A DNA stretch of 52,220 nucleotides. Source: a virus. The stretch covers positions 1-52,220 of IMG/VR virus record IMGVR_UViG_3300014962_000011. One strand, written 5' to 3'. The notes under the pieces were generated by a model that had not been told where the DNA came from, searched no databases, and worked only from the letters and a program-made list of their open reading frames with translations. A program made the position numbers and the translations under genes. Positions 38,592 to 52,144 of the stretch are shown here, one piece after another (within the stretch, counting starts at the first letter, position 1; the number at the start of each line of letters is the position of its first letter).

Positions 38592-39995
38592 TTATCTGCG
38601 TAAATATGTGTTATAACCAAATCTTTGCCTTTGCTGTTGTGGGCCGCGTATTATGGTGCAGTCTGCTTCTTGCTTTATCTCGAAGTACATCATCATAATG
38701 AGCATATCCAGATAGTCGGGCGAACGCCCTAGTAATTCTTTCATTAACTCCTTTTTGACAATGCGCTTCTTTGTTTCATCTTTATCAACACTCTCGGCCT
38801 TCAATACGCCAACTTCTTCTATTATCCGTTCTTTCTGCTCTGTGGTGCATATCACCTTTATCCTTCGCTCATTTATCGCACTGGCAAGCTCATAGGCGCA
38901 CTCTGCTTTTATGTTGGCATATTCTGCCTTATTGATTGCAGATGCGCCGCCGTGAAACTCTTTTATTCCAGTCAGGTAACTACCTTCGCCCTTGCTGTCA
39001 GTACCACCTAAGAAGTTACCCAGACCATCACTATCGGCAACCGTTTGACTGCGCGGCACGGCTTCATTTGTCATCGTAGCCTGTAAGTCGCGCACAATGG
39101 ATTTGCCTGTACTTTTTGGCTGATCTATTGGTATTCTCACCACCATGCCGTCACGAACCCCGACTATGAACCTATCCCGGCCCTGCATCGCCAAATCGGC
39201 GCTTATGTACTTCTTGCCCGTCGGCTTCACATGCTCATTGGTGAACATGTCGCAGATAGCATCGTAGTCACATAGTACTGTGGGGTCGTCGTCGTATTCC
39301 CAGTTGCCGAACAAAAGGCGCTCTTTCTGGTTGCGCGATAATGTGCGCATCAGGTTTTCGAGGTATCCATCGGGAAGGCATTTGTTATCCTGCGGTAAGG
39401 CCTGAACAAAACGCTTCCACGGCTCCAGATTCTTATCCTTATGCTTGCGGTAGTATTCGCGGTACAGGTAATTCTTTGACGGGTTACAGGTCTGCAATAG
39501 CTTACCTTTTAGCTTGTACACATCGTTCTTCCACCTGCCTATGCTTGCCCCCAGGTTGTTGACAGCGTCTTCATCAAACTCTCCCGATTCCTCACACCAA
39601 CCGCGCGTCATTTGCATCGAGCCAAAACGCATATAAAGCGGATCGCTCGGCATGAACTCAGCAGCCAGCAGGTAAACAACAGATTTATTGTGCAGCACGA
39701 AGCAATTATCTTGCCCATTGTACTTATACATGCTCTGCTTGATACCCCATTTCTCGAATACCTCATACACTGACGGTATCGTAAACTTACGCAGGTCTGA
39801 CAGCGTAGTACGGGCAATGAAATAGTGCGTACCCGGATAGATAAACGCATCACCAAATATCAAAGAACATCCTAAAAATGATTTACCACTACCCTTGCTG
39901 CCACCATATGCTATATGTGAGACTTCGTCATTAAGCCAATGCCTGCACACTTCTTTTTGCTTGTCGTTGCCTTGCGTATTAAAGACCAGCTCCAT
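38592..39995 (-). CDS. terL: Terminase large subunit
   Basis: A 467-aa protein. ATPase domain: Walker A GGSKGSGKS (31-39) and a Walker B region RGWCEESGEF (131-140). Nuclease domain: Asp267 (SADLAMQGRD) and Asp321/323 (VADSDGLG), the RNase H-fold acidic residues. It cuts concatemers and pumps DNA into the head through the portal. It starts 1 base after the small subunit stop. Full length and intact. Confidence 0.92.
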   Translation of the reverse strand: MELVFNTQGNDKQKEVCRHWLNDEVSHIAYGGSKGSGKSFLGCSLIFGDAFIYPGTHYFIARTTLSDLRKFTIPSVYEVFEKWGIKQSMYKYNGQDNCFVLHNKSVVYLLAAEFMPSDPLYMRFGSMQMTRGWCEESGEFDEDAVNNLGASIGRWKNDVYKLKGKLLQTCNPSKNYLYREYYRKHKDKNLEPWKRFVQALPQDNKCLPDGYLENLMRTLSRNQKERLLFGNWEYDDDPTVLCDYDAICDMFTNEHVKPTGKKYISADLAMQGRDRFIVGVRDGMVVRIPIDQPKSTGKSIVRDLQATMTNEAVPRSQTVADSDGLGNFLGGTDSKGEGSYLTGIKEFHGGASAINKAEYANIKAECAYELASAINERRIKVICTTEQKERIIEEVGVLKAESVDKDETKKRIVKKELMKELLGRSPDYLDMLIMMMYFEIKQEADCTIIRGPQQQRQRFGYNTYLRR

Positions 39996-48011: not shown

Positions 48012-48863
48012 ATGAGCAACACAACACAAGTACAGAAAAAAACAGGCATCGCAGCCATATCAGAATACCTTAACGGCGGAGCGGTAGCTAAGAAGTTTGA
48101 AAGCATGATGGGCAAGCGGTCAACGCAGTTCATTACAAGCGTAATGCACGTTTGCGCCAACAATGAGCTATTAAAGAACGCCCTGCCCGAAACGGTCTAC
48201 CAAGCGGCAGCAGTAGCAGCTACGCTGGATCTGCCAATCAACAACAACCTGGGGTTTGCCTACATTATCCCTTACAAGGAAAAGCGCGAAGACGAACAAG
48301 GGCGCACCTATGATGTAGTAGTAGCTCAATTCCAGATGGGTTACAAGGGATTTATTCAACTGGCACAGCGTAGCGGTCAATTCAAGTACATAGGGGCAAG
48401 CCCTATATTCGAGGGGCAGCTAATAGAAAACAACCCGCTTACCGGCAACATCTTCGACTTTTCCAAAAAGAAGTCCGACACCGTAATAGGCTATGCAGCC
48501 GGATTCGTCCTTCTCAATGGCTTTGACACCACATTTTACATGCCGGTTGAAAAAATACACGCTCACGCCAAAAGGTACTCAAAGACCTATGAGAACAAAA
48601 ACGGTCGCTGGAAGCTGGACTTTGAAGGCATGGCAACCAAGACGGTTATTAAGTTGCTCCTGTCCAAATACGCCCCGCTATCAGTAGAAACAATCCAAAG
48701 CGCGGTAATGTTCGACCAAGCCACCATAAAGGACTTTGAGACAAAAGAAGTTGAGTACACGGACGCGGTAGAGGTGGAGCAGCACGTATTGGATGCTGTA
48801 AACATCGACAAAAAAGCAGTAGAAGCGGCAAAAACATCACAGCCAGAATTAAACATGCCATAA
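48012..48863 (+). CDS. recT: RecT-family single-strand annealing protein
   Basis: A 283-aa protein. The RecT core is clear: FITSVMHVCANNELLKNA, then AAAVAATLDLPINNNLGFAYIIPY and the conserved FQMGYKGFIQLAQRSGQF (about residues 102-120). It anneals single-stranded DNA for phage recombination. The C-terminal tail is acidic and Lys-rich, usual for regulation by partner proteins. The nuclease-translocase starts 1 base after it, so they are very probably partners. Confidence 0.92.
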   Translation: MSNTTQVQKKTGIAAISEYLNGGAVAKKFESMMGKRSTQFITSVMHVCANNELLKNALPETVYQAAAVAATLDLPINNNLGFAYIIPYKEKREDEQGRTYDVVVAQFQMGYKGFIQLAQRSGQFKYIGASPIFEGQLIENNPLTGNIFDFSKKKSDTVIGYAAGFVLLNGFDTTFYMPVEKIHAHAKRYSKTYENKNGRWKLDFEGMATKTVIKLLLSKYAPLSVETIQSAVMFDQATIKDFETKEVEYTDAVEVEQHVLDAVNIDKKAVEAAKTSQPELNMP

Positions 48864-48864
48864 C

Positions 48865-50967
48865 ATGAGCCAGTACAAAGAATATACCCCCGAGCAGGTT
48901 GAAGGTCTGGTAAGCCAGTTCCTTGTAAGCAGTTGGAGCTTTTCCCGCGTGTCAACGTTTGCGCGAAATGAAAAGGCTTTCGAGATGCAATACATCTTTA
49001 ACGTAGCCGCAAAGCTGTCGGCAACCACCATAGCGGGGCAGGCATACCACGCGGCGGTAGAGGCGTATTTCTTTAACCGCAAACGGGGGCATACGCTGGC
49101 GCTGGCAGACTTGGAAATTGTTTCTTTCAACTACATAGATGAAGTAAAGGCTAACCGATGGAAGATACAGAAAACAACGCCAACCATTGACGAATGCAGG
49201 GCTAAGGCTACGCAGTTGGCTACTATGCTGGTCAGGAACTTCTTCGCGGAAATATCGACCTATGAGGAAGATATAAAGGAGATAATAGATGTTGAGGTGA
49301 AATGCGAGGAGTTCCTGACCATTAATGGGGTAGACGTACCGCTGCCATGCCATGCGCGTATCGACCTAGTGGTAAGGACGAAAAGCGACCGTGTGGCGAT
49401 TGTTGACCATAAAAGCCGGTCCGGATATACATCAGACGATGAAATAGCAATGTCCATAGGCAGGCAGGCAATAACCTACATAAAGAGCTATGAGGCTAAG
49501 ACCGGGCAGCCAGTAGATGAAGTTTGGTTTATAGAGAATAAAACATCTATGAACAAAGACAAGTCACCACAGCTTAAAGCCTTTAAGATTGTGCTCGACG
49601 CTGATACCCGCAAGCTATACGAATCCCTGCTTTATGAGCCACTACGCCGCATGATAACAGCCGTAAACGACCCGGATTATGTGTACATGATGAACGACAC
49701 AGACAACTATGTAGACCGGGCCGAAATGTACGACTTCTGGGCGCGTACCATGATAAGCGAGGTTGACGACTTCAATGTAGACACGAGCAAGCGCGACCTA
49801 ATAACCAAGCGTCTGCGAAAAATACGGGACGCATCCGCGCCAATGGTAAGCCCACAGGTAATAAAACAGTTCAAAGAAAACGCAGCATCATTCATTCAAT
49901 ACGATTTAAGCCATACTAATATGACACCAAGCGAAAAGATAGAGCACGTACTACGCAGCTTTGGCATTATTGCCCGAGTCGCCCACCAGATGCAGGGATA
50001 TTCCAGCGATACATTCTTACTTGAAGTGTCCGCCGGGGTGCAAATATCCTCCATGAAAAAACACAGGCTGGACATTGCCAACGCCCTCGACGTTTCAAAC
50101 GTCCGTTTCTCTGAAAACCTTGTAATGCATGAAGGGAAGTCTTACATATCTGTAGACTTTTCAAAGAAGCGCGACCGGGATTTGATTTTCGACGAATCAG
50201 CTTTGGTTGGTCGCAGGTTGCCGCTGGGTAAGGATAATTTCGGTAATACCGTTGTGTGGGACTTGGATAACCACGCCACCCCTCATATGTTGATATGCGG
50301 GCAGACGGGTAGCGGCAAAAGTGTTAGCATACAATCAACTATTGAGTATGCGATACAATCCGGGATTGACAATATTATCATTCTCGATCCAAAATTCGAG
50401 TTCACAGATTATAATGACGTGCTGGGCATAACTGTAGTTAATGAAATTCTCGCCATAGAAAAGGAAATGGCAAAGCTGGTAGAGTACATGAATGAGCTAG
50501 TTCGCACAGGACGCAAAGAACCCACGCTTGTTGTGTTTGATGAGTTCGCGGACGCAGTGGCACAGTCGCGTAAAGGCAAAGAGCTGGACATAATGGAAAT
50601 GGTTCAGACCGGCACATATAAGAATGGTGCGCCAAAAATGGACTTAAAGAAAACAGGAGAACTTAAATCACTAGAGGAAAACCTACGCATACTGCTGCAA
50701 AAAGGACGCTCGTCTGGATTCAGGATAATAGCCGCTACGCAGCGTGCATCGGTTAAGGTAATCACAGGAGACGCAAAGGTGAATTTCCCTGTACAGGTTT
50801 GTTTCCGCGTACCAAAAGAGGCGGACAGCCGGGTAGTACTTGACGAAGCCGGGGCCGAATCATTAGCCGGCATGGGTGACGGGCTTATCAAGTCACCAGA
50901 GTACACGGAAACGGTTCGATTCCAGGCATACTACAAACCAAAGACTAACAAGGTAAAAGCCGCCTAA
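48865..50967 (+). CDS. PD-(D/E)XK nuclease fused to FtsK/HerA-type DNA translocase
   Basis: A 700-aa protein. N-terminal RecB-like nuclease domain (about 20-270): GQAYHAAVE (His62), HARIDLVV (Asp167), IVDHKS (Asp181, Lys183) and the QAITY motif (Gln201). C-terminal FtsK/SpoIIIE-like ATPase (about 440-695): Walker A GQTGSGKS near 479, Walker B VVFDEFAD near 555, and IIAATQRAS near 622. The middle (about 300-435) resembles the beta-domain of FtsK-type proteins. Expected to bind DNA ends, move along DNA and cut, supplying RecT with single strands. Uncommon fusion; function inferred. Confidence 0.85.
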   Translation: MSQYKEYTPEQVEGLVSQFLVSSWSFSRVSTFARNEKAFEMQYIFNVAAKLSATTIAGQAYHAAVEAYFFNRKRGHTLALADLEIVSFNYIDEVKANRWKIQKTTPTIDECRAKATQLATMLVRNFFAEISTYEEDIKEIIDVEVKCEEFLTINGVDVPLPCHARIDLVVRTKSDRVAIVDHKSRSGYTSDDEIAMSIGRQAITYIKSYEAKTGQPVDEVWFIENKTSMNKDKSPQLKAFKIVLDADTRKLYESLLYEPLRRMITAVNDPDYVYMMNDTDNYVDRAEMYDFWARTMISEVDDFNVDTSKRDLITKRLRKIRDASAPMVSPQVIKQFKENAASFIQYDLSHTNMTPSEKIEHVLRSFGIIARVAHQMQGYSSDTFLLEVSAGVQISSMKKHRLDIANALDVSNVRFSENLVMHEGKSYISVDFSKKRDRDLIFDESALVGRRLPLGKDNFGNTVVWDLDNHATPHMLICGQTGSGKSVSIQSTIEYAIQSGIDNIIILDPKFEFTDYNDVLGITVVNEILAIEKEMAKLVEYMNELVRTGRKEPTLVVFDEFADAVAQSRKGKELDIMEMVQTGTYKNGAPKMDLKKTGELKSLEENLRILLQKGRSSGFRIIAATQRASVKVITGDAKVNFPVQVCFRVPKEADSRVVLDEAGAESLAGMGDGLIKSPEYTETVRFQAYYKPKTNKVKAA

Positions 50968-50970
50968 ATT

Positions 50971-51234
50971 ATGACAGTCACAATCCACGGTATAGACTAC
51001 GAATGCAGCCCTGAGCTGGCAGAGGTTGTAAAGCAGCTTTATGACGAAGGGGTGCGCCTGAACCAGCAGGTAGAAACTATGGTGCAGACCATTGCAAACT
51101 ACCAGATGAAGAATGAAACAGCGGTGGCGCACCCTACAAGGGAAACGAGGTTACAGGTGTGGAAGGCTAAGAAGCAGCTATTGGAGTTGATACCAAAGAA
51201 CAAGATTGAGCAATTACAATTTTTCAGAGCATAA
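50971..51234 (+). CDS. Hypothetical recombination-operon protein (87 aa)
   Basis: Not recognised. Helical, with SPELAEVVKQLYDEGVRLN and a charged C-terminus (WKAKKQLLELIPKNK). Located 3 bases after the nuclease-translocase, so it may be its accessory factor. Confidence 0.55.
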   Translation: MTVTIHGIDYECSPELAEVVKQLYDEGVRLNQQVETMVQTIANYQMKNETAVAHPTRETRLQVWKAKKQLLELIPKNKIEQLQFFRA

Positions 51235-51264: not shown

Positions 51265-51576
51265 ATGAAGCAACACAAATTCAAAGCACAGCGAACAGAA
51301 ATAGACGGGATAAAGTTTGCCAGCAAGAAAGAGGCTAATAGGTATGTGATACTAAAGCTAATGGATAAACAGGGGTATATACGAAACCTACGCCTGCAAG
51401 TCCCATACGATCTGAATCCCGGCGGCGCGTTCAAATATCGCTACTTCGCTGACTTTGTTTATGAGCAGGGTAATGATACGATTGTCGAGGATTGCAAGGG
51501 GTATTTAACAAGAGAGTACAAAAAGAAACGCGCTTTGATGCTAAAGATACACAACATAAAAATAAAGGAGGTATAG
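51265..51576 (+). CDS. DUF1064 endonuclease-like protein (103 aa)
   Basis: QHKFKAQRTEIDGIKFASKK then EANRYVILKL, followed by RYFADFVY and IVEDCKGYLT, the E, D and E-x-K residues of a PD-(D/E)XK-type nuclease. DUF1064 proteins are common in phage recombination blocks and may act as resolvase-like or packaging nucleases. Next to RusA in many phages. Confidence 0.75.
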   Translation: MKQHKFKAQRTEIDGIKFASKKEANRYVILKLMDKQGYIRNLRLQVPYDLNPGGAFKYRYFADFVYEQGNDTIVEDCKGYLTREYKKKRALMLKIHNIKIKEV

Positions 51577-51577
51577 T

Positions 51578-52144
51578 GTGGAAATTATTTCATGGAAGCC
51601 GGTAGTAGGCTATGAAGGATTGTACGAAGTGAGCGACATGGGACGCGTGCGCAGCCTACATAAGAATACAAAGTCATCTAAGGTTGCTGGCAACATAATG
51701 CGTTTACACGCAAAACCAAAAGGGTATTTAGGAGTATCGCTTAGTAAGAATGGAAAGGTGTCCACTAAAATGGTGCATAGAATTGTCGCTATTGCGTTTA
51801 TATCCAACCCGTTTGGCAAGTTGACAGTAAACCACAAAGATGCAGACAAGCAAAACAACAGAGTAGATAACCTAGAGTGGGCTACGCAGTTAGAAAATGT
51901 CCAGCACGCTCGTGCTTTGGGGTTACAGCCGCCCATGTCCCCAAACTGTTGGGCTGCATCTACAAAAGCTATATCCAAAAAGGTGAGCATGTATTCAATT
52001 TCTGGAGATTATATCAGATCATTCCCTAGTACGCACGAAGCTTTCCGAGTTACAGGAATTTCTCAAACCGGAATATCGAAAATATGCCGTAATAAGATTA
52101 AAAATCCTACTAGGTATGTTTTCAAATACGACAACAAGCATTAA
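51578..52144 (+). CDS. NUMOD4-HNH homing endonuclease (188 aa)
   Basis: N-terminal NUMOD4 (WKPVVGYEGLYEVSDMGRVR), central HNH (TVNHKDADKQNNRVDNLEWAT), C-terminal NUMOD1-like DNA-binding motif (ISGDYIRSFPSTHEAFRVTG). GTG start 1 base after the DUF1064 stop. A free-standing homing endonuclease that cuts alleles lacking it. In the circular form it takes the place occupied by rusA and four small genes in the left end of the window. Confidence 0.85.
   Translation: MEIISWKPVVGYEGLYEVSDMGRVRSLHKNTKSSKVAGNIMRLHAKPKGYLGVSLSKNGKVSTKMVHRIVAIAFISNPFGKLTVNHKDADKQNNRVDNLEWATQLENVQHARALGLQPPMSPNCWAASTKAISKKVSMYSISGDYIRSFPSTHEAFRVTGISQTGISKICRNKIKNPTRYVFKYDNKH

Follow-up and report, generated by a model that had tools for sequence, protein, structure and literature searches.

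In lambda Red (exonuclease and Red-beta) and in RecE-RecT, a nuclease and an annealing protein are encoded together, as they are at the loci described here, where a nuclease-FtsK translocase fusion (hereafter the fusion) accompanies a single-strand annealing protein (SSAP). Annealing proteins require a 3'-ended single strand. Red-beta of lambda binds the exonuclease through its C-terminal domain (about 8 uM; PMC7496540), and double-strand recombination depends on this domain (PMC7496540, PMC5052646). The exonuclease of lambda works as a trimer, independently of ATP and without a motor, whereas the fusion carries an FtsK motor, and docking in lambda uses a folded domain, whereas for the fusion system we propose a 5–10 residue tail carried by unrelated annealing proteins.

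NurA-HerA relies on a ring translocase, of the FtsK/HerA class, that drives duplex into a nuclease so that a 3' tail remains (PMC9960219). The preliminary description of this DNA had assigned RecBCD and AddAB to bacteria and a separate nuclease and motor (NurA, HerA) to archaea; the second assignment was too narrow, as separate NurA-HerA resection pairs are also found in bacteria (Deinococcus, PMC9960219), so the combination of a nuclease with an FtsK/HerA motor has a bacterial precedent. The archaeal and Deinococcus systems resemble the fusion in joining a nuclease to an FtsK/HerA-class double-strand DNA translocase, HerA being hexameric. NurA-HerA, however, consists of two proteins in a 2:6 complex, with a NurA-type nuclease and a HerA motor, whereas the fusion is a single phage-borne chain with a RecB-type nuclease, an FtsK alpha domain and motor, and an annealing protein as its partner. 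With a RecB-type nuclease and an FtsK-type motor on one chain, the fusion is not a NurA-HerA member, but its mode of work is comparable.

RecBCD, AddAB, AdnAB and Dna2 likewise couple a nuclease of the RecB class to a motor, but the motors they use are single-strand helicases of the SF1 type rather than ring-forming double-strand translocases; the motor of the fusion is of the FtsK type, which sets it apart from RecBCD and AddAB. With FtsK/SpoIIIE proteins, including phage FtsK-like proteins (phrog_1358), the fusion has in common the alpha and motor domains and Walker A/B, but it has neither a membrane part nor a gamma domain and is joined to a nuclease.

The recT-fusion locus

The window, a 52,220-nucleotide stretch of viral DNA (IMG/VR record IMGVR_UViG_3300014962_000011), carries the following features:

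48012..48863, plus strand: recT-type SSAP, 283 aa (PF03837, TIGR00616, phrog_148)
48822..48860, plus strand: RecT C-terminal tail EAAKTSQPELNMP-COOH, a putative docking peptide, with an L/M-Pro ending common to ten SSAP families
48865..50967, plus strand: nuclease-FtsK translocase fusion, 700 aa, one chain in about 110 loci
48931..49566, plus strand: RecB-type PD-(D/E)XK nuclease domain, aa 23-234 (PF12705; Foldseek Dna2/AdnA/ACE1), with H62, E144, D167, D181-x-K183, Q201 and Y205
49921..50934, plus strand: FtsK alpha domain and motor, aa 353-690 (PF17854, PF01580, phmmer, Foldseek), with Walker A GQTGSGKS (479-486), Walker B D559-E560 and QR 626-627
50971..51234, plus strand: small 87-aa protein downstream of the fusion (DUF7689-like; weak, E 0.007, below cut-off)
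51265..51576, plus strand: DUF1064/phage Holliday-junction-resolvase-like protein (PF06356 1e-15, phrog_190 1e-27)

The annealing protein is a clear RecT (PF03837, E 4e-39; TIGR00616, E 5e-51; phrog_148, E 4e-66), and the resolvase-like gene belongs to the same recombination cassette as recT and the fusion. The preliminary description had placed a RecB-type nuclease and an FtsK-like motor on one 700-aa chain, coupled to recT by a 1-base gap, and both points were borne out: recT ends at 48863 and the fusion begins at 48865, and each half was recovered by profile and by structure. For the N-terminal half, PDDEXK_1 (PF12705) matched residues 23-234 (E 6e-13) with 49.7 bits against a cut-off of 22, which identifies a RecB-type nuclease; phage exonuclease profiles also matched. 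For the C-terminal half, FtsK_alpha (PF17854; residues 353-431, E 2e-6) and FtsK_SpoIIIE (PF01580; residues 453-544, E 3e-10) both scored above cut-off, and E. coli FtsK (2ius) was found by phmmer (E 3e-28), giving the alpha domain plus RecA-like motor with Walker A/B that defines FtsK/SpoIIIE. The full-chain structure prediction (alignment of 32 sequences) was confident (mean pLDDT 86.7, pTM 0.50), with a weak linker at about 325-350, and Foldseek matched its two halves to FtsK motors (6t8o, 2ius; E about 1e-24) and to the RecB-type nucleases Dna2, ACE1 and AdnA (E 1e-9 to 1e-7). The chain starts with the nuclease and ends ten residues past the motor. As both the DNA-reading gamma domain and the N-terminal membrane part of cellular FtsK are absent from it, the fusion is an FtsK-motor protein and not a cellular FtsK. 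A beta-hairpin insert follows Walker B (window 50587-50661, fusion aa 575-599) in most relatives; this optional feature, missing in loci L001, L007, L008 and L018, is a possible strand-separating pin or regulatory element.

A packaging role for the motor, as in a phage terminase, was rejected, as the window holds a separate terminase-like gene (38592-39995, minus strand, weak PF03237 match). A gene for a NUMOD4-HNH homing-type endonuclease adjoins the recombination cassette (window 51578-52144).

Conservation of the fusion and exchange of its partner

Scans of viral contigs and species genomes recovered full-length relatives of the fusion at 37–71% identity, and removal of duplicates left 114 loci, of which 106 are full length. 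Both halves remain joined in about 110 related loci from Bacteroidota phages and prophages, and no split version was found among these relatives. Incomplete copies are limited to truncations at contig ends, the frame-broken L011 and the intein-bearing L110. Around related annealing proteins (~400 loci), the nuclease and motor profiles either co-occur or are both absent, the exception being the broken copy. D167, D181, K183, Q201, K485 (Walker A) and E560 (Walker B) are invariant across the 106 full-length fusions, and H62, E144, Y205 and D559 (Walker B) each vary in one of them; the nuclease residues named beforehand (His62, Asp167, Asp181, Lys183 and Gln201) had thus been placed correctly, are intact and are conserved in 105–106 of the 106. 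Since about 110 loci keep the fusion, with conserved active-site residues, its sequences mark a real family, far beyond a chance or assembly fusion.

Named hosts are Bacteroidota (Chitinophaga, Flavihumibacter, Flavobacterium, Chryseobacterium, Pedobacter, Tenacibaculum, Dysgonomonas, Prevotella and others), apart from one locus from Puniceicoccaceae; the labels Sedimentibacter and Ruminococcus, given to metagenome-assembled genomes at two loci, are probably binning noise. The listed phage FtsK-like matches align to the motor half only, and in five gut-phage FtsK-like examples a nuclease half of this type was absent. The intein of L110 (L110:3784-6687), with an HNH domain inside (PF14890, 6e-13; PF13392, 2e-9), splits Walker A precisely (GATG/C...HN/SGKS), which points to an essential P-loop.

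The gene directly upstream of the fusion is mostly coupled to it at -4 to +3 bases, and this adjacency of annealing-protein and nuclease genes is that of a two-component phage recombinase. The link to recombination proposed for the window's RecT therefore stood, as the relatives nearly always lie beside an annealing protein, but RecT is only one of about ten families, with a common tail, that occupy the position. Partners matched RecT (three PHROG types), ERF (PF04404), Rad52/Rad22 (PF04098) and a Sak4-like P-loop ATPase (PF13479, phrog_1366); the others are phrog_3657, the largest group (35 loci), and three unannotated families (L005-type, L021 and L060). Profile-profile comparison of the SSAP families gave no confident relation between their bodies; the alignment of phrog_3657 with RecT was weak and confined to the C-terminal ends. 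The predicted structure of phrog_3657 (pLDDT 84) gave no significant PDB match in Foldseek, and its putative annealing role is read from gene position and tail. In L022, L082 and L119, no recognised SSAP lay in the stretch around the fusion that was examined.

Partners have been exchanged repeatedly. Mapped onto a FastTree phylogeny of the fusions, partner family switches no fewer than 34 times (shuffled mean 61, minimum possible 9), and the RecT-linked fusion of the window branches among fusions linked to Sak4. L066 and L068 show the sharpest such swap: their fusions are 98.6% identical and their flanks about 92–98% identical, the SSAP gene is wholly replaced (phrog_3657 versus RecT), and both unrelated SSAPs end in Met-Pro. 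In both of these near-identical phages, an open reading frame matching a T4 gp5-type trimerisation domain holds an in-frame array of 24-bp tandem repeats, whose copy number differs between them (34 copies at L068:2108-2931, fewer at L066:2516-2811).

The C-terminal tail of fusion-linked annealing proteins

Whatever their family, fusion-linked SSAPs end roughly in [KQ]-x-hydrophobic-[DEN]-[L/M]-Pro-COOH. Across 101 non-redundant proteins from ten families (the damaged genes of L018, whose SSAP tail appears to have been lost, and L143 were left out), Leu or Met occupies -2 in 100 and 80 terminate in Pro, about a fifth having L, M, K, A, Y or S in that place; most carry a hydrophobic residue or Pro at -4 and D, E or N at -3. 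Genome loci collected separately (L121-L153) show the [LM]P end in 23/29, with Leu at -2 in the other six. When five SSAP families were scanned regardless of the fusion, the [LM]P ending was found in 30 of 35 proteins with a fusion against 3 of 272 without (Fisher p 4.7e-33), the with-fusion contigs overlapping the discovery set; the five exceptions end in LL, LM or LY. The last tail residue may also covary with the fusion, a suggestive pattern confined to two clades. The SSAP of L132 is a natural chimera of an L005-type core and a 77-aa C-terminal module that is 70% identical to that of unrelated phrog_3657-type SSAPs, whose fusions are the nearest relatives of the L132 fusion; the C-terminal module therefore moves between unrelated bodies and travels with the fusion.

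We considered two ways in which this ending could arise other than by contact with the fusion. First, the tail could bind a host factor, such as the sliding clamp or a different receptor for SSB-like tails, leaving the fusion as a physically uncoupled exonuclease. Some tails do match a clamp-like pattern (Q-x-x-hydrophobic-x-[LM]), and nearby phage SSBs end in DLPF, close to the tail, so that a host or SSB-related receptor is conceivable. Q at -7, however, occurs in only 29/101 fusion-linked SSAPs, and same-family SSAPs without a fusion lack the tail, both in those at least 60% identical to the query (0/23) and in a set, with many distant members, drawn from Bacteroidota genomes and Flavobacterium phage FL-1 (0/23). 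A host receptor, weakened by these fusion-free controls, is thus an unlikely explanation.

Second, the ending could be a nucleotide-level by-product, a ATGCCATGA-like overlap with the fusion start codon that is carried along when SSAP genes recombine close to the junction. Overlaps of 4 or 1 bases prevail among the gene pairs, the SSAP genes end most often in CCA-TGA, and the DNA shared after the L066/L068 swap starts within the last codons, all of which would fit. The tail is nonetheless present across gaps of 29 to 1589 bases (spacers of 29–196 bp, 523 bp in L020, and 1589 bp with several genes in L026), Leu is encoded by TTA, TTG, CTG, CTT, CTC and CTA and Pro by all four of its codons, Leu is the only one-step neighbour of Met that occurs at -2, and Pro ends only 2/58 of the fusion-free SSAPs that have the -4 overlap. 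Given those overlapping fusion-free SSAPs and the codon variety, we rejected this reading, which is largely refuted and highly improbable.

Co-occurrence instead suggests that the binding partner of the tail may be the fusion itself.

In L020, an HNH-like gene with a NUMOD4-type look (L020:5477-6004) lies between the SSAP and the fusion, and the SSAP retains its tail, KMEMP. An SSB-like protein (L022:1605-2054) and a small open reading frame (L119:6123-6380) of fusion-bearing phages end in DLPF and NLPF, resembling the SSAP tail, and the SSAP of L034 ends in NNLPFDLPS, both forms together. That an SSB ending in DLPF and an SSAP ending in DLP use a common pocket, as suggested for Red-beta, is a guess.

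A proposed resection-annealing machine

We consider it probable that the fusion and its tail-docked SSAP form a two-component phage recombinase that resects and then anneals DNA ends. The fusion would be the constant half, acting at double-strand DNA ends: its FtsK-type motor would pull duplex in as the RecB-type nuclease joined to it strips away one strand and exposes the other, presumably degrading the 5' strand in an ATP-driven reaction and leaving the 3' tail that annealing requires. The upstream annealing protein, tethered through its short C-terminal peptide, would coat the new single strand and then anneal it. Because recognition would rest on the tail and not on the body, unrelated annealing proteins could be exchanged on one machine. 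By analogy, the fusion may be a one-chain counterpart of NurA-HerA that replaces lambda exonuclease. We lean slightly towards the more specific form of this model, in which one nuclease-translocase accepts SSAPs of any fold through a hydrophobic-x-[L/M]-Pro-COOH plug and a one-chain ring, possibly a hexamer, resects while pumping. The sequences themselves establish the fused architecture with its intact active sites, the near-constant pairing with an annealing protein, the exchange of partners and the association of the tail with the fusion; ATP-driven resection, its polarity, a hexamer and binding of the tail to the fusion are inferences.

Other activities of the same two domains were weighed against resection. 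Branch migration, end bridging or concatemer handling by the motor, with the nuclease as a structure-specific endonuclease and not an end-resecting exonuclease, would suit the resolvase-like gene adjoining the fusion, and FtsK-type rings travel on intact duplex; such a role would be redundant with the separate resolvase, though, and RecB/Dna2/AdnA as well as phage exonuclease profiles match the nuclease, so we regard it as quite unlikely. Degradation of DNA from the host or a competitor, serving nucleotide supply or exclusion, would make the adjacency to the SSAP a matter of early-gene clustering. A nuclease with a translocase would serve processive breakdown well, and the motor is similar to defence-system ATPases (mad8, SspH), but the neighbour is nearly always an SSAP, often translationally coupled, and the shared tail implies a functional link between the two proteins; the removal of host DNA raised in the preliminary description gained no specific support, and we consider this reading very unlikely. 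End resection would be the most economical function for the fusion.

An annealing protein with a nuclease is a known kind of system. The one-chain RecB-nuclease/FtsK motor and the tail common to unrelated annealing proteins appear new, no description of either having been found in the open-access library searched, which lacks most subscription journals; the swappable partner is also new relative to NurA-HerA. If the model is true, a one-chain RecB-nuclease/FtsK resection machine joins RecBCD, AddAB and NurA-HerA, and homologous recombination has a family-independent docking code, which would explain how coupling to the nuclease survives when phages trade one annealing protein for an unrelated one. 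The short peptide could then be grafted onto other annealing proteins, a direct benefit to recombineering in Bacteroidota, where moving annealing proteins from one host to another is a practical difficulty, and the unstudied phage families phrog_3657, L005-type, L021 and L060 would stand out as likely annealing proteins.

Mycobacteriophage WXIN offers a further case of a phage FtsK motor beside a DNA-end protein: its stand-alone FtsK-like translocase (L036:3983-6361) almost adjoins a Ku-domain gene.
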